Assembly: GCA_963402885.1 (NCBI GenBank)
Contig: OY727097.1
Span: forward strand, 22,878,001-22,942,000
DNA: 64,000 nt
DNA from: Antedon bifida
Taxonomy: Eukaryota > Echinodermata > Crinoidea > Comatulida > Antedonidae
Direction: 5' to 3'
The position numbers were made by a program, and so were the translations under genes. Below the pieces are notes generated by a model. It searched no databases and was not told the DNA's origin. It saw nothing but the letters and a program-made list of their open reading frames with translations. Positions 7,501 through 44,325 of this stretch are shown piece after piece (the first letter of the stretch is position 1; each line of letters begins with the position of its first letter).

Positions 7501-10500
7501 AGATAGGCTCGAACTCATGTGTATCACATGCTAGTCTGATATTATCATTACACCATCACTCTCTGGTATATATAGCACCCGCCATGATTCCCGGACGGTC
7601 TTCCATCCTGAATTGAACCGGGCCTAACGTTGCTTAACTGCAGTAATCTTACGCAAACCGGTGTTTCAACGCAGTATGGTCAAGAGCTAGGATCCAAGAT
7701 ACATGTCTATCATTTTAGTATGACATGAACTCCAGCATACTATAGCAGTGGAATAACGGAATAAATAATGTAGAATCGAATCAGAAACTTACTTTTTGCT
7801 TCGTCTTAGTTCTTGGCCAGCTTGGTATGGTACAGAGCGGTGTAGTTTCAGTGCACCTTTCAAGTGGAATTGTGCAAAGCATGCAGCACAGTACAGTTCA
7901 GCACATTCCATACACGACTGTTGAATACAAAATGAACTCGATAAGGGGTGTAAACAAAGTCTTGTAATGTAATATAAACTATGATATATAATAAATGGTG
8001 TTGCTGCTGATATTCATTATTGAGAAATTCATTCAAAATGTCTATACTTTATTAATCAAACCACCAATAATAATAATAATAACTATAACAATATCCAAAT
8101 TACTCCTCCCTCACTTAATTAAGAAATTCAGTATGAAGAAAAACAACAAATGTCATGTGATAATATTGTTGTCATTCTTACAAGTGCTCCAGCCTTTTCT
8201 TCACATTGTCCACAAGCAGGACCATCAAATGTCTTTCTTGCAGTTAGCTTTGGTCTCACAGCCCGCTTTGGAGCTTCTTTAGGGAAAAAAAATGTAAACA
8301 TTTATTCAATGAATACAATTGTTCTATAAATATGGACCATATTTATATGTTCAAAGATGCAGATCTGTTTATGAATACTTTTTGAAAATGAAAGGTGGTG
8401 GTAGGGGTGAGGGGGTTGGGGGGAGAGAGAAAACAGTGGAATATGAGAATAAAAACAAAACGCTGTGTACAAAATGATGGGTTTGAAAAGAAAAGGGAGG
8501 AGAGATATATCCCTTCATACCCCCAGGGTTTGTAATAGTGCACATACAAATTTAATTTACATTTCTATCTTCAGATAGCTTTAGGTATAAACATGTTTTG
8601 AGATTGAGCAGCCTTTTAATTGTTTAATTGTAATAATTTAAAAAATGAAAATAAAGAAAATGAAAATTAAAAAAATATGTCTGTTTCTATGTAAGTTGTC
8701 TAATTGGATAGATTCATGGTTTGAAGAATTTAATTTTAAAAATACTTACTGATAGGACCATCTTTCAAAACTGTTATTTTCTTTGGCTGAAAAACATTTG
8801 AAAAAAAAACACAGAATATAGACTAGAAATTCATCACTTTTTTCTTTTCTCCTGCATATCGCATTCCCGCATCCGGGTATACATTTTCTATTGTTTATTA
8901 TAAAATGTAAACCTTTTTAACAACATTGATAATAACCACACTTTTTTTTCATCACCGGTAAAGGAGAACGATCATGTGAAATAAAAAAAGTGGTGGTGGT
9001 GGTAGAGGACTAGAAAATATGAAGTCCTACTTATATATTAAATGTTTATACACTATTGAAAAGGGGAATGGAAAAGATTATTAAAGATATATTGTTCCCT
9101 TTTGTCTCCTCCACCCCAAATTTTTTATTGAAGGTCGGTCTATTTCTCATGTTTCTGAGGGAATACATCTTTAAAGTGCTAAAATCCACTACACTTTCCT
9201 ACCTTAGTGGACCTAGGCATTTCAGTATAATTTCTGGTGTTCCTGCTGCTATTAGGCCCATGTCCTGCCAAAGCTCCTTCCTTGCCAGACCGCCAGTAAC
9301 CACCACTTCCTTGGCGTCTATATAAACAGTTTGAAAAAGAAAAAAAAGCTAAGATTATGTTGACCCGATACTGAAAGCATCCCAATATCGACAAAGAAGA
9401 ACTCAATCAATCGTTTCTTAGAGTCTTAAAGCATTTCTTCTTACTTTGGTTATCTTTTTTAAAAATCTTTTTTTGATTACTTTTTTTTATTGGACAGAAT
9501 AGAGCTTCTGTTCCGACGAGCTCTCATATGGGAGTTTCAAAGTTCAGACGGTCTTACTAAAGACACCCCTGTTAGTTAGACCATTGCTATAAAACAGTTT
9601 TAACTAAGACCGTGTACAGAATTACGCATAGAATACCAAATAAGGTAATGTTTGTCACGCTTGTTCAATTCACAATTATAACAGTACGTACAATTATACG
9701 CGAATCTATTCTAGGCCTATATAAGAATAAAACCACCGTTATTATTTGATTTAACACTTAAAACTTGTTAAATTGGTTGTCTTTCACGAAACAATAATAT
9801 GTATAATAAGCAACAAAAAGAGAGGTTTAAGCCTGTTTTAAGACTCCTTCGAGCAGGCTTTAGTTTTAAAGACCGTTTACAGGATAGACCGCAGTATAGC
9901 AATGGTCTATAATAAAGACTACTTGCTACGTCACAAATTATAGCCGGCTAGGCGCTAAGACCGCTTATAGCAATCCGCCCCTGGAGAATGGAGCGGTGAA
10001 AATGATTACTCTGCATCATCTTCGTTTTTGTGATTTTCTTAAGATATTTTATGGATTGATTTTCTGTAAAGTGCTTAGAAACATTGTATTAGGCGTCATA
10101 AAATATAAGGCTACCATTATAATTATTATATAATATAATTAGCAAATTATAATTAGTAAACTTACTCTCGTTCCTGTTTTTCCTGGCTCATTGTCATTTT
10201 TAACTCGCGGAGGCGCTCTTCCATTTTTCGGCTATCAATCTCCAGCTGCCTTGTTGCTGATTTTGAAGCATTGAAGGTTCTTTATAAAAAAAAAATGAAT
10301 ATAAAAACATTTGTTCACTGTATAAATAATGAAGAATTTAAAATTATTTAATCATTAAATTAATTAATTGTGATTTTATGTTACGCAAAATGAGAAGCAA
10401 ATACTTGCTTTTTTGGTCAGTTACATTTTTTGTTACTTCTTTATTAAGATATACAAATGGATGGATATTAAACGTTGATATGCGCTGAAAAGCCTTACCT

Positions 10501-12648: not shown

Positions 12649-12755
12649 TCCCCAGTGGCTCAGTCGGTTAGCGCGCCGTACTTATAAACAGTACATGGCT
12701 TCGCCCTTACTGGTTAGGTAATGCGGAGGTCGAGAGTTCGATCCTCTCCTGGGGA
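12649..12755 (+). tRNA. tRNA-Ile (anticodon TAT) with intron
   Basis: Acceptor stem TCCCCAG pairs fully with CTGGGGA. The T arm is GAGAG-TTCGATC-CTCTC, and the anticodon arm is CCGTA-CTTATAA-TGCGG, giving anticodon TAT. An intron of about 34 bp follows position 37, within 12688-12722. Intron-containing tRNA-Ile(TAT) is the norm in animals. The gene decodes the rare AUA codon. All stems close, so it looks functional. Confidence 0.93.
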
Positions 12756-12762
12756 ATTTACG

Positions 12763-14090: not shown

Positions 14091-15037
14091 CTTTCTATGA
14101 CGCATGTTCTTCGAGTTATAAGAAAAGTACATACGGATTGTTAGTTATTCAAATCCCACCCATTATAACAATCATCAATACGTTAAAGGCAAACTATCAT
14201 GGCTGCTGTTGGAAATGATACCTCGTCTAGTGCGGTCGAGTGGCAACATCAATTGGTACTGGTGGTACTCCAGTGGCTTGTTGCTTCAACAGGTATTATT
14301 GCAAACTGTATGGTTATTGCTGTATTTGTTTACGACAAAACGTACAAAAAGTCTTTGTCGCTTAAACTAATTTTAAACCAGACTGTGATTGATCTCTTGG
14401 GTTCGGTATCATTTTGGACGTTTTATGGTCCTAATAATTCTGGCGAAAGATTATGTAATGTAAGAGCCTTCTTTTTTTATTTGTCATCAGCGTCTTCATA
14501 CAACTTTGCCATCCTTACTATTGAAAAATACATCGCTATCGTTCATCCTGTAAGTTATCGAAAGAGGTCGTTAAGCGGTAAATTTGTTTATTTATCAATT
14601 TTGTTACCGTATCTTGTCGGTTTTCTTAGTATTTTGTGTAGTGCATCTGTATCAATGCTGGTAGGCCTAGATGTTGATTTTCGACGGTGCAACTTGGAAT
14701 TAAGCGGATTACCTTCTGCCATTATTGTAACTACCTCTTGGTTCTTACCCATGATCGGTATAATGTACTCTTACGTGAAAATGACGTAGGCATTGAATGT
14801 TTCAAGAAATAAAGTAATAGTAATACCACAATTACAACCAAGTAGCATCACTCGACCTGTTCATCATCTAAATTTAATCAAAACACTTGCTTTGATAGCA
14901 ACTGTGTATGTTGTGACAATAACTCCACATATCATTTGTACATGGATACATTTCATATGGAATACCGATGTTACGAAGGTTAAACAATATGTTTATTCCG
15001 AATTTTTCTATTTTCTATTCACAATTACCCTACACGT

Positions 15038-15346
15038 TCTAGAACTAATATACACATACCTATCCACAACACCAATTATTTTCAAAACAGTATTAGATAC
15101 TCTGGTCCATCAATGATGAACAGTTTACCACCCCCAATTACAAATGCTGTTTTAATTTCTTTATTTTCCAAAAAATTAAAACAACACCTAATGTTAAAGT
15201 ATTAAAAAGACAACAATCGAATGTCGCAATTTGATTTATGCTGCTGAACATTGATCTACTGTGGTTTTTGAGTTTTATTTTCTGATTCTACAATTTGATT
15301 GATCTATTTTTTTCAATTTATTTATTTATTTATTTATTTTATATAT

Positions 15347-16023: not shown

Positions 16024-16393
16024 CACCTTGACATGATTTAAACATTTAATTTTGAACATGGCGTAATCATTATTAATCCATGTTTTGACAAGGAGGAATT
16101 CACTTTCTGTTATTTGCAATGTAACGTGTAGGACGAGGTAGGCGAGAGTCGCTGCGTAATCTGTTTACTCAGTAACCGTTTCATTTTAATAAATTGCTTG
16201 TAACGTAAGTAAGTACTAATAATAATAATACATGGGATATCAAAAGTTATATTTCATTTCGTTTTATTTACTTTTATTTCAAACTACCAGCATGGCTATG
16301 CTAATAATCAAAGTCAATATTATCTTTTCCAAGCTCGATGTATCGAAGAGTAGGCCTAATTTAAGGTTAACAGCAAATTAAGTTAAGTCAAGT

Positions 16394-17820
16394 CAAATTG
16401 TTTTGGTTTGAATTTTTTTTATTTTTTTTTAAATTTTTATTACGAAGAACTGCAATTACACGTAAGATCCACTCGGAACTTTCCTTCTGTTGGTTCCGGC
16501 TCAACATCTTGATTCATGTTTTCAGCTGAAAGACGTCATTAACTTCATTATATTAAGGCTATCAATGCCTACGCTACGTGTAATCCTGATTGCTTGGTTT
16601 GCATCTTTAGTGTGCTCTGTGCTTTATAGATTACTGCCTCGGTACGTATAAGAAATGTGTCATAATTTTTTTGAAAAGTCTTGAGAATCTTCTATCAACC
16701 ACCAAAGCAACAAAATAAACTCTTGATGCGTTGTAATACCCCACGTTCAAATTGTTTTGGTTTTAATTTTTTTTTTATTTTAATACGAAAAGAAGAACTG
16801 CAATTACACGTAAGATCCACTCGGAACTTTCCTTCTGTTGGTTCCGGCTTAACATCTTGATTCATGTTTTCAGCTGAAAGACGTCATTAACTTCATTATA
16901 TTAAGGCTATCAATGTCTACGCTACGTGTAATCCTGATTGATTGGTTTGATCTTCAGTGTGCTCTGTGCTTTATGGATTACTGCCTCGGTACGTATAAGA
17001 AATGTGTCATAATTGTTTTGAAAAAGTTGAGAATCTTCTAAAAAAATACATGTTTCAACCAACAAAGCAACAAAATAAACTCTTGATGCGTTGTAATATC
17101 CCACGTTCAAATTGTTTTGGTTTAAATTTTTTTTTTTATTTTTAATACGAAAAGAAGAACTGCAATTACACGTAAGATCCACTCGGAACTTTCCTTCTGT
17201 TGGTTTCGGCTCAACATCTTGATTCATGTTTTCAGCTGAGAGACGTCATTAACTTCATTATATTAAGGCTACCAATGCCTACGCTACGTGTAATCCTGAT
17301 TAATTGGTTTGCATCTTCAGTGTGCTCTGTGCTTTATGGATTACTGCCTCGGTACGTATAAGAAATGTGTCATAATTGTTGTGAAAAGTCTTGAGAATCT
17401 TCTAAAAAAAATACATGTTTCAACCAACAAAGCAACAAAGTAAACTCTTGATGCATGCGTTGTAATACCCCACGTTCAAATTGTTTTGGTTTTAATTTTA
17501 ATTTTTTTTAAATTTTAATACGAGAAGAAGAACTGCAATTACACGTAAGATCCACTCGGAACTTTCCTTCTGTTGGTTCCGGCTTAACATCTTGATTCAT
17601 GTTTTCAGCTGAAAGACGTCATTAACTTCATTATATTAAGGCTATCAATGCCTACGCTACGTGTAATCCTTATTGATTGATTTGATCTTCAGTGTCCTCT
17701 GTGCTTTAAGAAATGTGTCATAATTGTTTTGAAAAGTCTTGAGAATCTTCTAAAAAAATACATGTTTCAACCACCAAAGCAACAAAATAAACTCTTGATG
17801 CGTTGTAATACCCCGCGTTT
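16394..17820 (-). repeat. Four-copy tandem array derived from the small gene's 3' end (U1)
   Basis: Units begin CAAATTGTTTTGG at 16394, 16748, 17108 and 17477. Each carries a copy of the gene's final codons plus about 300 bp of 3' flank. The fourth is the live terminal exon, with its stop at 17767. The extra copies at 16695-16745 and 17055-17105 still read RGVLQRIKSLFCCFGG-stop and RGILQRIKSLFCCFVG-stop on the minus strand. The copy near 17425-17476 has a 4-base CATG duplication that shifts the frame. Confidence 0.88.
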
Positions 17821-18974
17821 TTGTTTAATTTGCGAGCTCTCATCACCATCTTCTATATTAACAGCGTTCACTTCGTTCCTCTTAACCTCATTCTCTTTAC
17901 TAACATTCTTCTTTTTTCTGAATAAGTTGCATCTCCTTTTCTTTTGCTTTTTCTGTGTTTTTGGAAGAACCACTGCAATATTACTTTCGATCACTTCTAA
18001 CTCCTGTGTTTTTGGAAGAACCACTGGAATATTACTTTCGATCACTTCTAACTGTGGTAAGTCTTCAGTTGTGGCGACAGAACCATTTCGTCTTCGTACT
18101 CGGTTAAATTGGTAAATATCTAATTTGAAACCAACAAGGGAAGTCTAAATTATACATATGTCTATACAGGCCTATATATTAATTTTGATATAAATATTAA
18201 TTAAAATTTCACATTTTCGAATGTGAGTATTTAGTGGGAAAGAAACATGCCAGTACTTGAGTGATGACCAGGAAAGAGTGACTCTTTCCTAGTGATAACA
18301 TTTTATTTGAGACTCAGGAACTTTGACAAAATGTGTTTGTAACCAATATTACAATGTATTTTTCGTATTTTATTAGGCCATATCCCTTTTTTAAAATGAA
18401 GAATTACCTGTGAACGTGAAGTCGTAGCATGATTGATATTCATATTCTGACATTGAGGTATCAACAGAATAAAAACTCGCTGAATCATCATCATCTTCTT
18501 CTTCTTCTGACTGAATATCTGGAGTTTTCTTATGAGATGTTTCTCTACAGTCGAGATAATGAGCTATGGAATCCGTCAGAGGGATTACAATTGTCGGAGC
18601 CTCCCACCAGTCTGCTTTATGATCTGATAATTCTATAACAACTAATATATACAAACATGCAGTGTAGCAATAATGTGATTTTCTTATAATATTTTGTTTA
18701 TTAATATTTATCTTGTAAGCCTAACCCTCCTTGTATACTAATTAATAATGTCTAAATATAATGACACTTAATTAATGTTATTTTTAAAATTAAAGTACAT
18801 ATCATAAAATTTATGAATTACATATTCCCATCCCTATCTATAATAGCGGAAGAATAACATTTTTTGTTCAATCAACTCTACCTCAACAGTGATCAAACAG
18901 GCGCCGTAAACTCGCAATGCAATATAGAATATTGAACTAAAAACAATACAATTTTGCATACCTGTTTTCATCAT
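17767..18974 (-). CDS. Unrecognised small protein, acidic/basic with LFCCFGG C-terminus (U1 copy)
   Basis: Three exons, 18962-18974, 18408-18632 and 17767-18119, with GT/AG junctions and phases that fit, give 196 aa. Start: MMKT at 18974, separated by a phase-1 intron. Residues 1-79 are acidic, with EEEEDDDD at 47-54 and Tyr/Ser-rich sequence after it. RVRRR is at 86-90. A 17-residue segment LEVIESNI(P/A)VVLPKT is repeated at 103-119 and 120-136. A basic cluster KKQKKRR-CNLFRKKK spans 136-150. The end is KRGVLQRIKSLFCCFGG, whose paired cysteines after a basic helix could be an S-palmitoylation anchor (inference). No signal peptide, membrane segment or known domain is visible, and I do not recognise the family. 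An AG nine bases upstream (18642-18643) could serve as acceptor in U1 only. Expression is unproven. Confidence 0.7.
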
Positions 18975-19490
18975 TGTGAATTCAATGGAAGTTTTTCAGT
19001 TAATACAGTATAAATTCGTTAAAAACAACAATTTTGCGAGAGAAATCAGTTAAGTTTGCCTGCTATGCTATTATAATAGACTAAGTTTGTTTGCCAGGGC
19101 AACGAAACGATGACAACGAGACAGCGCGTGCGTAAGAGGCGCATTTCCGATGTGACGTGTGCATATAATCGCATAAGATAACGCGCTTCCGTCTATATCG
19201 CATGATGATAATAATGCACGAACTCGAGGATTTGTATTACCTCACACCAGATCTGTAATAATACAGGGCCGTAGCCACCAGTACGGTTGGTAAGGTTTCA
19301 ACCTGACCACTTTCCACAAAGAGGCCTTTGAAAACCCAGTGGCTTGAACAGAGAATAATAGTTCCCTTTCCTTGATAAACCGCACCACTTCGTTTTTTGC
19401 GGGACATCGCTGTAATACATCATATTTATTAATATATATTTATTTTAAAGTTTACTAGCTAGAGACAATGAAACAATGCAATATAATAAT
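18975..19490 (-). promoter_or_regulatory. Upstream region of the small gene with RFX-like X-box (U1)
   Basis: At 19090-19103 the minus strand reads GTTGCC-CT-GGCAAA, one base off the RFX X-box consensus GTNRCC-N(0-3)-RGYAAC, about 116 bp upstream of the start codon. The remainder to 19490 shows no gene. X-boxes of this form drive ciliary genes, so such regulation is possible but untested. Confidence 0.5.
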
Positions 19491-28239: not shown

Positions 28240-29664
28240 CAAATTGTTTTGGTTTGAATTTTTTTTATTTTTTTTTAAATTTTTATTACGAAGAACTGCA
28301 ATTACACGTAAGATCCACTCGGAACTTTCCTTCTGTTGGTTCCGGCTCAACATCTTGATTCATGTTTTCAGCTGAAAGACGTCATTAACTTCATTATATT
28401 AAGGCTATCAATGCCTACGCTACGTGTAATCCTGATTGCTTGGTTTGCATCTTTAGTGTGCTCTGTGCTTTATAGATTACTGCCTCGGTACGTATAAGAA
28501 ATGTGTCATAATTTTTTTGAAAAGTCTTGAGAATCTTCTATCAACCACCAAAGCAACAAAATAAACTCTTGATGCGTTGTAATACCCCACGTTCAAATTG
28601 TTTTGGTTTTAATTTTTTTTTTATTTTAATACGAAAAGAAGAACTGCAATTACACGTAAGATCCACTCGGAACTTTCCTTCTGTTGGTTCCGGCTTAACA
28701 TCTTGATTCATGTTTTCAGCTGAAAGACGTCATTAACTTCATTATATTAAGGCTATCAATGTCTACGCTACGTGTAATCCTGATTGATTGGTTTGATCTT
28801 CAGTGTGCTCTGTGCTTTATGGATTACTGCCTCGGTACGTATAAGAAATGTGTCATAATTGTTTTGAAAAAGTTTAGAATCTTCTAAAAAAATACATGTT
28901 TCAACCAACAAAGCAACAAAATAAACTCTTGATGCGTTGTAATATCCCACGTTCAAATTGTTTTGGTTTAAATTTTTTTTTTATTTTTAATACGAAAAGA
29001 AGAACTGCAATTACACGTAAGATCCACTCGGAACTTTCCTTCTGTTGGTTTCGGCTCAACATCTTGATTCATGTTTTCAGCTGAGAGACGTCATTAACTT
29101 CATTATATTAAGGCTACCAATGCCTACGCTACGTGTAATCCTGATTAATTGGTTTGCATCTTCAGTGTGCTCTGTGCTTTATGGATTACTGCCTCGGTAC
29201 GTATAAGAAATGTGTCATAATTGTTGTGAAAAGTCTTGAGAATCTTCTAAAAAAATACATGTTTCAACCAACAAAGCAACAAAGTAAACTCTTGATGCAT
29301 GCGTTGTAATACCCCACGTTCAAATTGTTTTGGTTTTAATTTTAATTTTTTTTAAATTTTAATACGAGAAGAAGAACTGCAATTACACGTAAGATCCACT
29401 CGGAACTTTCCTTCTGTTGGTTCCGGCTTAACATCTTGATTCATGTTTTCAGCTGAAAGACGTCATTAACTTCATTATATTAAGGCTATCAATGCCTACG
29501 CTACGTGTAATCCTTATTGATTGGTTTGATCTTCAGTGTCCTCTGTGCTTTAAGAAATGTGTCATAATTGTTTTGAAAAGTCTTGAGAATCTTCTAAAAA
29601 AATACATGTTTCAACCACCAAAGCAACAAAATAAACTCTTGATGCGTTGTAATACCCCGCGTTT
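28240..29664 (-). repeat. 3'-tail tandem array of the small gene (U2)
   Basis: Same four-unit layout as in U1. An altered T-run shortens the off-frame reading that starts MNQDV in the other units. Confidence 0.88.
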
Positions 29665-30822
29665 TTGTTTAATTTGCGAGCTCTCATCACCATCTTCTAT
29701 ATTAACAGCGTTCACTTCGTTCCTCTTAACCTCATTCTCTTTACTAACATTCTTCTTTTTTCTGAATAAGTTGCATCTCCTTTTCTTTTGCTTTTTCTGT
29801 GTTTTTGGAAGAACCACTGCAATATTACTTTCGATCACTTCTAACTCCTGTGTTTTTGGAAGAACCACTGGAATATTACTTTCGATCACTTCTAACTGTG
29901 GTAAGTCTTCAGTTGTGGCGACAGAACCATTTCGTCTTCGTACTCGGTTAAATTGGTAAATATCTAATTTGAAACCAACAAGGGAAGTCTAAATTATACA
30001 TATGTCTATACAGGCCTATATATTAATTTTGATATAAATATTAATTAAAATTTCACATTTTCGAATGTGAGTATTAATTTAGTGGGAAAGAAACATGCCA
30101 GTACTTGAGTGATGACCAGGAAAGAGTGACTCTTTCCTAGTGATAACATTTTATTTGAGACTCAGGAACTTTGACAAAATGTGTTTGTAACCAATATTAC
30201 AATGTATTTTTCGTATTTTATTAGGCCATATCCCTTTTTTAAAATGAAGAATTACCTGTGAACGTGAAGTCGTAGCATGATTGATATTCATATTCTGACA
30301 TTGAGGTATCAACAGAATAAAAACTCGCTGAATCATCATCATCTTCTTCTTCTTCTGACTGAATATCTGGAGTTTTCTTAGGAGATGTTTCTCTACAGTC
30401 GAGATAATGAGCTATGGAATCCGTCAGAGGGATTACAATTGCCGGAGCCTCCCACCAGTCTGCTTTATGATCTGATAATTCTATAATAACAAATATATAC
30501 AAACATGCAGTGTAGCAATAATGTGATTTTCTTATAATATTTTGTTTATTAATATTTATCTTGTAAGCCTAACCCTCCTTGTATACTAATTAATAATGTC
30601 TAAATATAATGACACTTAATTAATGTTATTTTTAAAATTAAAGTACATATCATAAAATTTATGAATTACATATTCCCATCCCTATCTATAATAGCGGAAG
30701 AATAACATTTTTTGTTCAATCAACTCTACCTCAACAGTGATCAAACAGGCGCCGTAAACTCGCAATGCAATATAGAATATTTAACTAAAAACAATACAAT
30801 TTTGCATACCTGTTTTCATCAT
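29611..30822 (-). CDS. Unrecognised small LFCCFGG protein (U2 copy)
   Basis: Exons 30810-30822, 30256-30480 and 29611-29963, open throughout, 196 aa. It differs from the U1 copy by Ala for Thr at residue 18 and Pro for His at residue 38. The upstream alternative acceptor AG of U1 is absent (TTTG instead of TTAG), which supports the common ATAG|AA acceptor for all copies. Confidence 0.7.
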
Positions 30823-30947
30823 TGTGAATTCAATGGAAGTTTTTCAGTTAATACAGTATAAATTCGTTAAAAACAACACTTTTGCGAGAGAAATCAGTTA
30901 AGTTTGCCTGCTATGCTATTATAATAGACTAAGTTTGTTTGCCAGGG

Positions 30948-40605: not shown

Positions 40606-41122
40606 GAAACGATGACAACGAGACAGCGCGTGCGTACAAGGCGCATTTCCGATGTGACGTGTGCATAATCGCATAAGATAACGCGCTTCCGTCTATATCG
40701 CATGATGATAATAATGCACGAACTCGAGGATTTGTATTACCTCACACCAGATCTGTAATAATACAGGGCCGTAGCCACCAGTACGGTTGGTAAGGTTTCA
40801 ACCTGACCACTTTCCACAAAGAGGCCTTTGAAAACCCAGTGGCTTGAACAGAGAATAATAGTTCCCTTTCCTTGATAAACCGCACCACTTCGTTTTTTGC
40901 GGGACATCGCTGTAATACATCATATTTATTAATATATATTTATTTTAAAGTTTACTAGCTAGAGACAATGAAACAATGCAATATAATAATAATATTACAT
41001 AGCCTATGTAAATACGTGAACGTGATTGGTTGAAACTGCGTCACATGACTACCGCTGCGAGGATCGTAAATCGTATATATCCTCGAGAACGATGATATTG
41101 ACCGATTAATTTTCGCGTAATT

Positions 41123-44100
41123 GGACTGGACTGGACTGAAAATCAAAAAGATGTATGGAGTTGCTATTGCCATCAAACAGTCACCCCATATCAAAGTGTC
41201 TAATGTTTATAATGTATATGAACGTCTAATGGCAATAGACGTCACAATAAAAAATTGTAAATTAAGAATTGTGTCTGCGTACTCTCCTACGGAATCCGGT
41301 TCAGAATCATCAAAGGATATTTTCTATGCAAAACTCTCCAAAGTAACAAGAGTCGAGAACAACACAAAACTCTTACTGATGGGAGACTTTAATGCAACAT
41401 CAACAATAACAACCAGAAAATCACTCTTTGATGGAAACCTACATAGATTTCAAGACACAGATGACATTAGTAACGACAATGGCACAAGACTCATCAACTA
41501 CTGCTCTGACTTCAAGCTATGCATACTGAACACCTGGTTTGACCATTCAAACGTTCATCGGATCACTTGGCATAGCAACGATGGTGTTACAAAGAAAACA
41601 CTAGATTACAACATATGTGATCACTGGTTGAGGAAGTATGTTACTGACACAAGAGTCTATAACAACTATTATCTTTCGTCTGATCATAGAATCCTTGTGA
41701 GTAATATGACAACACCAGCCAACAAAGCAGCCAGGTGGAAGAAGCATAAAAAGAAAAAACAGAGCAAAAGAGCCAACATGAGTAAACTTAAAGATCGAGA
41801 AGTAAGAAATAATGTTAAAACAAAGATAGAAGAAGAAATTAATAAAATTAATAAAAAAAAAATTAATAAAATTACTTCTCCTGAAAAGACAACAACCACT
41901 ACATCAACTGAGCGCTATACAACACTTATGACAGTGCTAAATAAGGCAGTTGAAGAAGTCCCGAAGAAAACAAGAAACCAAAATGCTCATCCCTGGGATG
42001 GTGATGAAAGACTACAACAGCTTATAAAAGAAAGAAAGAATATTAACAAAAGCACAGTTACCTACAAAGAAGAGGAGATCAAGGCTATGCAGAAAGCAAT
42101 TAAGATAAGGGTTAAGGAACTACGGAATGAATATTTGTATGAAGAAGCAAGCAAGTTAAATGAAGCCCACCAAAATAGAAAAATATTTGATTTATGGAGA
42201 AAAGCTAAGGAGCACGGTGATGTTATAAGAAAAGCACCAAAGCCTATAAAATGTCCTGGATTACGTGAACACTTTAAAGATCACTTTAATCCAGACCAAT
42301 CTAGCCTTAAAATCCCAGATGAAATTAGCACACCTCCAGAATATATTATCAACCTGAGACAACCAGAATTTGAGATAGACAATGAACCTCCGTCCAAGAA
42401 AGAAATTATTGATGCAATCGGACATCTAAAAGGTCGCAAAGCTACCCTAGATGTCGCTTCTGAAATGTTGCAAGTCGCCACAGAGAACCCAGTATTCGTC
42501 GACCATGTACATAGACTGTTTGAGGAAATTTGGAGAACGAAAGAAGTACCAAGTGATTGGGGACTGTCCAAATTAACAACCATTTGGAAAAAAAAAGGCA
42601 GTCCACTTGATCCATCAATGTATAGAGGAATATCGATTGGGTCTACATTTTCAAAGATACTTATGGTTATCATTCTTTCACGTTTTTCCATCTTTTATGA
42701 AAGTCAACTTCTACGCACACAGTTTGGATTCAGGTCCAACAGAGGGTGCAATGATGCTATATATGTAATCAAGCAGATCCAGGAAATTGCGTATCGCTCA
42801 AATCGCAAACTCTATACATGCTTCATTGATTTAACAGCAGCATTCGACCATGTGAATCGTAATCTTCTTTTCCTAAGCGTTCGTAATAGGTTTCACTTAA
42901 ACCAGTCTACTACTATGATTGACATTATACAATCACTGTACAGCTCAACGAAAGCATACCTTGCTGACGACGATCCGAGTGATGATAAGTTCGAAACATC
43001 TTCTGGGGTGCGACAGGGTGGTATTGAGAGTACCAGCATGTTTAACCAATATTTTGATTACGTTATTAGAGTGTTCAAACAACGCTGTAAAGATGCTAGT
43101 TTGGATGGCCTAATGATACAATACCTAATTCCTATTGAAGCTACAAATCGTGCTCAAAGACGTAAAGCACCATCAAGGGGCATCTATGACGACTTTGAAA
43201 GTGGCTATGCTGATGACTTTGCTGTAAGCTCCTGGTCACAAGAAGAACTGCAAACCATTGTGAACATCTTGAATAAAGTTTGTCTGGAATTTGGTCTAAG
43301 AATTAGTGCCCCCAAAACAGAAACCATTATATGGAACTGGAAAGAGGAAGTTGAAGAATACCCAAGATGCATCATACAAATTGGCGGCGTACACATTAAC
43401 AACGTAACACACTTTAGATACCTTGGTGTATGGGCTACCTACAATGATGTTCATATTGGAGATCAAGAAGTAAAATACAGAATCAATTCAGCCAAAGGAG
43501 CATTTGCAGAGAATAGAGCATTGCTTACCAACAGAACGATCCACTTACAAACAAGAATGATGTTTCTTAATGGTCTAGTTAGGAGTAGACTCACCTATGG
43601 TTGCCATGCTTGGAGGGCAACAGGAAGTGAAATGTCCAAACTTAGCACAACATACAAAACCTTCCTAAGAAGAATGCTAGTGAATGGCTTTCAAAGAGTC
43701 TGCCCACCAAACCATGTAGACATATCCTCAGATGAAGAAACAGATGAAAACTATATAGACTGGCGTTACGTTATTGATAATGACGATCTCTACAAAATTA
43801 CTGGCTGTCAACCGCTAGAAGAATATGTCTACAAGCAACAATTCAACTGGATCGGACATGTAATTAGAAAAGAAAATGAAGATCCTACAAAAATTCTTAC
43901 TTTTCACACAACCCAAAGTAAACGAAGAGGTCGGAAGATACCATCAATACTTGATAGAGTTGTACAACAAAGTCAACTTACTAGATGCAACTTCATTAGA
44001 GCCTGCTTCAACAGAAATTTATAATTCCCAGCAATGTTTTAACTGTATATATGAACTGTTTATAAGTTGTTTTGTGACTGTGTAATTTGGTAGTAGTCAC

Positions 44101-44214
44101 TCTCATACTGTAGGCCTACATTTAAAAGTAACACATCCAAATGCCAACTTTAAGTCAATGGCTACCAGATGTCTCTGTGAGACGGTTATTTGAACCAGTA
44201 CCAGTACCAGTACC
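41123..44214 (+). mobile_element. RTE-like LINE, 5'-truncated, with long intact ORF (U3 only)
   Basis: Inserted in block B at GCGTAATTATCG, with AATT duplicated on both sides (41119-41122 and 44215-44218). An open frame covers 41121-44024 (967 codons). It enters midway through an AP endonuclease (VSAYSPT, LLMGDFNAT, KKTLDYNI, SSDHRILV) and continues through a reverse transcriptase with FIDLTAAFDHVNR, SGVRQGGIES and YADDFAV to a C-terminus with WIGHVIRKE and KRRGRK. The first endonuclease motifs are missing. The 5' junction is (GGACT)3 and the 3' tail is (CCAGTA)n, a simple-repeat tail typical of RTE elements. Clade assignment is tentative; the GGIES motif is unusual for RTE and could point to a Proto2/RTEX relative. 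Confidence 0.85.
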
Positions 44215-44325
44215 AATTATCGTGTCCCCTTGTCATTAAACATATACATTCTCGAGTTCGATGATATTGACTGTGTAATTTTCGTGTGGCAACACTCGCG
44301 TTTGCCGATAAATAAACAAAAGTCA

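Follow-up and report, generated by a model that had tools for sequence, protein, structure and literature searches.

Tandem, recently exchanged multi-copy genes are known from echinoderms in the form of the sea urchin Sp185/333 (SpTransformer) genes, in which two exons, a signal-peptide leader exon and then one large exon, encode Gly/His-rich secreted products. At the protein level, small C-terminally palmitoylated, polybasic peripheral membrane proteins provide a general class for comparison. In this study, we describe a gene family of the crinoid Antedon bifida that can be set beside both. Its larger cluster (array A) is, like Sp185/333, an echinoderm set of tandem, recently exchanged multi-copy genes; however, the genes of this cluster and of a diverged second cluster (B) have three or four coding exons, the first encoding 4 residues and one further base, and an acidic and lysine-rich protein, and a leader exon with a signal peptide was found in neither. 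The products of array A resemble the palmitoylated class in having a basic stretch, a Cys-Cys near the C-terminus and no recognisable domain, but no sequence relation to that class was found, and lipidation of the A and B proteins is only putative.

The window, which is the whole stretch of 64,000 nt that was analysed (C10:22878001-22942000), contains four complete repeat units, U1 to U4, and the genome searched comprised 315.6 Mb in 27 contigs. The features to which we refer are as follows.

16393..17788, no strand: four tandem satellite repeats, spaced every 348-373 bp, at the gene's 3' side; same layout in U2-U4
18974-18962, minus strand: U1 exon 1, ATGATGAAAACAG, 13 coding nt, donor GTATGC
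18632-18408, minus strand: U1 exon 2, short form, with the acidic Tyr/Ser-rich segment and with the Cys-motif segment deleted
18546..18549, minus strand: junction of the 183-nt, in-frame deletion in U1, placed from the alignment and the sequence, to within a 2-nt repeat (GT)
18119-17767, minus strand: U1 exon 3, with RRN / VIESNIPVVLPK duplicated segment, QKKQKKRRCNLFRKKK basic stretch and C-terminal IKSLFCCFGG plus stop
19090..19103, minus strand: GTTGCCCTGGCAAA, X-box-like palindrome, 129 nt upstream of the U1 start codon; also at 30938, 40592 and 56740
29611..30822, minus strand: U2 copy, exons 30822-30810, 30480-30256 and 29963-29611; 196 aa
39266..40476, minus strand: U3 copy, exons 40476-40464, 40134-39907 and 39618-39266; 197 aa
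55413..56624, minus strand: U4 copy, exons 56624-56612, 56282-56058 and 55765-55413; 196 aa

A minus-strand reading of three exons and 196-197 codons is unbroken in all four units. Exon 1 encodes 4 residues and one base of a split codon, both U1 introns have GT...AG ends and lie in phase 1, and U2-U4 share this structure. An initial annotation of the window had described just such a reading, with matching phases and an in-frame length change in U3, and we recovered both; the U3 change is +3 nt, P to NT. The protein layout that it had listed was also borne out: the acidic, Tyr/Ser-rich N-terminal half corresponds to a segment of exon 2, and the doubled 17-residue segment, the lysine-rich stretch and the C-terminal Cys-Cys are all present in the window copies.

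A genome search with the 196-aa protein located exon 3 ten times in the interval 22.896-22.998 Mb; these ten copies make up array A, and alignment showed that the frame is open and TTGA intact in every one. The donor is GTATGC in nine copies and GTATTC in U10. Seven copies encode short products (196 aa in U1, U2, U4 and U5; 197 aa in U3, U6 and U9) and three, all outside the window, encode long ones (257 aa in U7 and U8; 259 aa in U10). The long copies keep a segment of 61 residues that carries the motif CX3CX2C[V/I]W and is common to the B set, so that this Cys module is found in U7, U8, U10 and B1-B3 and is missing from seven of the ten array copies, including U1-U4. The difference between the long and short forms is 183 nt, or 61 codons, and keeps the frame. 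We take the long form to be ancestral, because the 61-residue segment also occurs in B, and the 196-aa form of the window to be derived by in-frame deletion; because three of ten near-identical array copies retain the module, we read the window copies as members of the family from which it was lost rather than as outsiders. The initial annotation was right that this is a real multi-copy gene, with ten array copies and three diverged relatives, but the 196-aa product that it described is not the basic form of the family. An intron reading of the extra 183 nt in U7, U8 and U10 was rejected: a GT...AG pair exists, but its removal breaks the frame and misses the junction of the short form, and the extra stretch reads through without a stop and can be aligned to B. 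The doubled 17-residue segment, which occurs in all ten array copies and in none of the B genes, reads as a local duplication.

The B set consists of three tandem genes at C10:26063254-26074535, 3.1 Mb from array A on the same chromosome. With the 196-aa query, places at 26.0646, 26.0697 and 26.0742 Mb matched A residues 79-194 at 33-34% identity (E 0.014-0.032), and the reverse search with the last exon of B returned the three B places and then the ten array copies at E 0.0019-0.0031. In these reciprocal searches, made with a tool that scores its best candidates only and may therefore miss distant relatives, only clusters A and B were found at E below 0.05. Two further matches to the A query at E 0.0855 (C10:3512731 and C12:11710807), with 30% identity over residues 80-181 and lying inside frames of 1855 and 574 codons, were taken as chance, as was a match on C8 at E 8.1 to the last exon of B. 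A exon 3 and the last exon of B are 32-34% identical; aligned with BLOSUM62 and gap costs of 11/1, A exon 3 and B exon 4 score 102, and the best of 2000 shuffles scored 59. For 60 residues of the long-A segment against B exon 2, where IEGRCRSTKVVRHRACSEMCAKCVWM pairs with VEGRGRRLLHRNNCKNLCADCIWV, the score is 58, against a maximum of 42 in 2000 shuffles. For the acidic stretch of A against B, 165 of 2000 shuffles reach the observed score, which is thus not above them, and the 5' flanks of A and B, whose best match lines up both the start codons and the donors, score 20, equal to the shuffle median of 20.

The B genes have four coding exons and phase-1 introns and encode 260, 258 and 258 aa. 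Their exon 1 reads ATGAATATAAAAG and then GTATGC, with 13 coding nt and the same donor hexamer as in A, and this donor is present in all three copies. They also share with A the VIExxIPVxxPK and QKKQxKR...FRK motifs and a Cys-Phe C-terminus, and with the long A form the CX3CX2C[V/I]W module; unlike A, they have one extra 39-nt exon, a single VIE...PK segment and another N-terminal part of exon 2. A query with B exon 2 retrieved the three B genes only, and one with long A exon 2 the array copies only, so divergence is faster in exon 2. Both clusters have a homologous last exon, a 13-nt first coding exon and phase-1 introns and, judged by sequence, A and B form one family of at least thirteen copies on a single chromosome.

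This second cluster carries the case for a gene, because recent common origin alone would leave many near-identical copies open. The initial annotation had drawn on the contrast between an open gene and the broken LINE beside it. The LINE is indeed fragmented in all four units of the window, and its endonuclease and reverse transcriptase (RT) parts were identified by Pfam in the first unit only; however, the contrast is weak as evidence. A search of the array strip with the first LINE of the window yielded eight full matches, one of them the query itself, and one partial match; identity of the rest to the query was 99.4-99.98%. The RT-part ORF measures 234 aa in all four units, and that of the endonuclease part has two lengths, 299 aa and 225 aa, each in two units. 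Since most of these ORF boundaries recur and the copies are so similar, the breaks were for the most part inherited and do not count as independent evidence, and openness of the gene across near-identical units is weak evidence; open copies in all units would be expected for some time without selection.

The three B pairs show 11/11, 13/17 and 13/20 synonymous/replacement changes over about 165 and 609 sites, corresponding to dN/dS values of 0.26, 0.34 and 0.40 (Fisher p 0.002, 0.005 and 0.015, for pairs that share sequences and are not independent). Variable sites in B fall 16/6/21 by codon position (p 0.017), and the sole exon indel is in frame. Between U7 and U10 there are 5/5 synonymous/replacement changes over 156 and 615 sites (dN/dS 0.25, p 0.033); intron 1 of this pair has 31 differences in 309 with 5 gaps, and the CDS 9 in 773 with 1 gap. 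As judged from these comparisons, the B genes have been demonstrated to be under constraint, and the same is suggested for the long A copies. Among the four window copies, the counts give no purifying signal: replacement to synonymous changes are 2:0 for U1-U2 and U1-U4, 3:1 for U1-U3, U2-U3 and U3-U4, and 0:0 for U2-U4, which fits neutrality because there are about four replacement sites per synonymous site. The short copies may therefore be relaxed or decaying, and the count of synonymous against non-synonymous changes proposed in the initial annotation favours a constrained gene in B, and less firmly in U7-U10, but not in the copies to which that annotation referred. Synonymous sites are saturated between A and B (dS 2.9). 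Intron 2 of A is conserved like the exons; it shows 0 and 2 differences in 288 even when U10 is compared, and its low divergence reflects recent exchange.

The satellite on the 3' side is related to the gene itself. Its last repeat overlaps the 3' end of the gene, and the other repeats hold three further copies of the last ~18 codons and the stop (53-nt matches, 98, 94 and 88% in each unit); because of these copies, the satellite probably grew from the 3' end of the gene. An ORF of 101 aa within the repeats (16922-17227) was considered as a gene and rejected, having no Pfam match.

Several other features lie in or near the two clusters. At 41121-44024 of the window, an open frame of 967 aa encodes endonuclease and RT domains; nothing else in the array strip matches 41122-44215 over more than 600 nt, so this LINE is apparently a younger insertion in the U3-U4 interval. 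At 14199-14789, a 196-aa frame matches rhodopsin-type GPCRs (7tm_1, E 1.5e-12) over their N-terminal part, and the next frame, 14793-15116, has no 7tm match, so the GPCR gene may be broken or intron-containing. Two long, near-identical single-frame GPCR readings precede B1 and B2 (C10:26061180-26062175 and 26066286-26067281), with 7tm_1 found in the one tested and none listed before B3. Beside the B set, frames on the minus strand of C10:26076488-26079254 resemble, by eye, what we take to be a MACPF/perforin-type secreted protein. The window also contains an Rfam 5S rRNA match (7574-7687, minus strand; 39.1 against a threshold of 38 bits) and an Rfam tRNA match spanning 108 nt, perhaps with an intron (12649-12756, plus strand), where ARAGORN found no tRNA.

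In the mitochondrial sequence (C27), COX1 gives a sensible reading with the echinoderm mitochondrial code. Five AAA codons occur in it, at least two of them at what we take to be usual Asn sites (PRVN-AAA-MSFW and DRNV-AAA-TTFF), together with ATA at a presumed Ile site and four AGA/AGG codons where Ser is plausible. A frame that we assume, by eye, to be COX2 follows COX1 almost directly, and a presumed ND1 frame lies beside it on the opposite strand. The usual echinoderm mitochondrial order has ND4L between COX1 and COX2, and C27 differs from it.

The initial annotation knew of no family to which the layout belonged, and Pfam and PDB did not supply one. Nothing in Pfam-A exceeded the gathering score for short A (best E 0.13, DUF5774), long A or B; phmmer found no match to short A or B in the PDB at E up to 10; PHROGs gave nothing usable for short A (best E 0.08); and none of 600 pattern matches in viral contigs was confirmed. 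Across Pfam, PDB, PHROGs, the viral contigs and this genome, the family therefore appears to be without a named relative, and in related species it could well already carry an "uncharacterised" annotation.

Based on these data, we think it probable that A and B are a real, spliced, protein-coding family, amplified in tandem, in which the short form arose from a deletion that spread and the product is a disordered, membrane-anchored adaptor. The gene structure, the kinship of the clusters, the deletion and the constraint on B are direct results of the comparisons above; we infer the anchoring, phosphorylation, partner binding and manner of spread. The ancestral product, of ~257-260 aa, would have begun with the 4-residue first exon and a small CX3CX2C[V/I]W Cys module; an acidic region rich in Tyr and Ser would have followed, then the RRN...VIExxIPVxxPK motif, the basic patch QKKQxKR...FRK and a basic C-terminus with CCFGG or SCFC at its end. 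The C-terminal ends are IKSLFCCFGG in A and ALKKMFSCFC in B1. An acidic Tyr/Ser-rich part joined to a basic, Cys-containing part suggests an adaptor that is cytosolic and disordered and has a basic, lipidated anchor in the membrane. No signal peptide was seen, since exon 1 encodes 4 residues and, by eye, no hydrophobic stretch lies near the N-terminus. The product would then be cytosolic and largely disordered, held on the inner face of the membrane by its basic C-terminus with palmitoylated cysteines, and its acidic Tyr/Ser segment may be phosphorylated and then bound by partners. AlphaFold2 models built from A/B rows showed no confident fold, with a mean pLDDT of 52.5 for U1 exon 3 and 34.2 for U7 exon 2, values that, coming from alignments of 5 and 6 rows, fit disorder and do not prove it. 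The short form would keep the anchor and the phospho-segment and do without the Cys module, whose loss from seven of the ten array copies we attribute to one in-frame 61-codon deletion, presumably spread by unequal exchange or gene conversion. It is conceivable, if decidedly speculative, that this is a new family of intracellular, membrane-tethered adaptors whose CX3CX2C[V/I]W module is novel and whose amplified, module-less majority acts as dosage-dependent competitors of the full-length form.

The short copies of the window could instead be non-functional by-products, a working long gene of the U7/U8/U10 and B type having lost a segment in frame and the shortened unit having been amplified passively with its LINE and satellite, so that the copies stay open through youth. 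We regard this as possible but rather unlikely: the units are near-identical (LINE copies 99.4-99.98%), replacements are not depleted among the window copies and the deletion takes out a segment conserved in B, and yet the deletion and every other exon change preserve the frame in all ten copies. All exon length changes seen are multiples of 3 (+3 in U3, U6 and U9; 183; +6 in U10; 6 in B), whereas the A introns show changes that are not, such as 288 versus 292 nt.

A rapidly evolving, RFX-controlled gene of sperm or another ciliated cell type, amplified for dosage, is doubtful. Tandem amplification with fast divergence is common in genes of such cells, and the palindrome GTTGCCCTGGCAAA, which we assume to resemble the RFX X-box and treat as a lead only, lies upstream of all four window copies, with 4 matches in the window against 0.01 expected in 100 shuffles, for a motif chosen after it had been seen. 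It has, however, two mismatches to the X-box consensus and one more in U10, and the B set has only half-site-like GTTGCC matches, at other distances. That a transposable element carries the reading, or gave rise to it, is very improbable; the gene does share its repeat unit with a LINE and a satellite, but in the genome searches the copies at E below 0.05 fell into two tandem clusters on C10, with none dispersed, the introns are retained, and Pfam found no transposase, RT or similar domain in the product. Least probable of all are chance open frames with chance splice signals. The array copies are too similar to provide a test alone, and exon 1 rests on short signals whose match to B does not by itself rise above shuffles; nevertheless, an exon of 33-34% identity, the 13-nt first exon, the donor and the phases all recur 3.1 Mb away, in genes with dN/dS of 0.26-0.40.

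In conclusion, a spliced, tandemly amplified family with a diverged second cluster remains our preferred reading of this locus. Should it be confirmed, the locus would contribute a gene family that is so far unannotated and a clear natural case of a shortened protein form that has spread through a tandem array, with only a minority of copies keeping the full form. Small genes that are amplified in tandem, diverge fast and exchange sequence among copies are of a well-known kind, and this one is notable for the short form that dominates its array.
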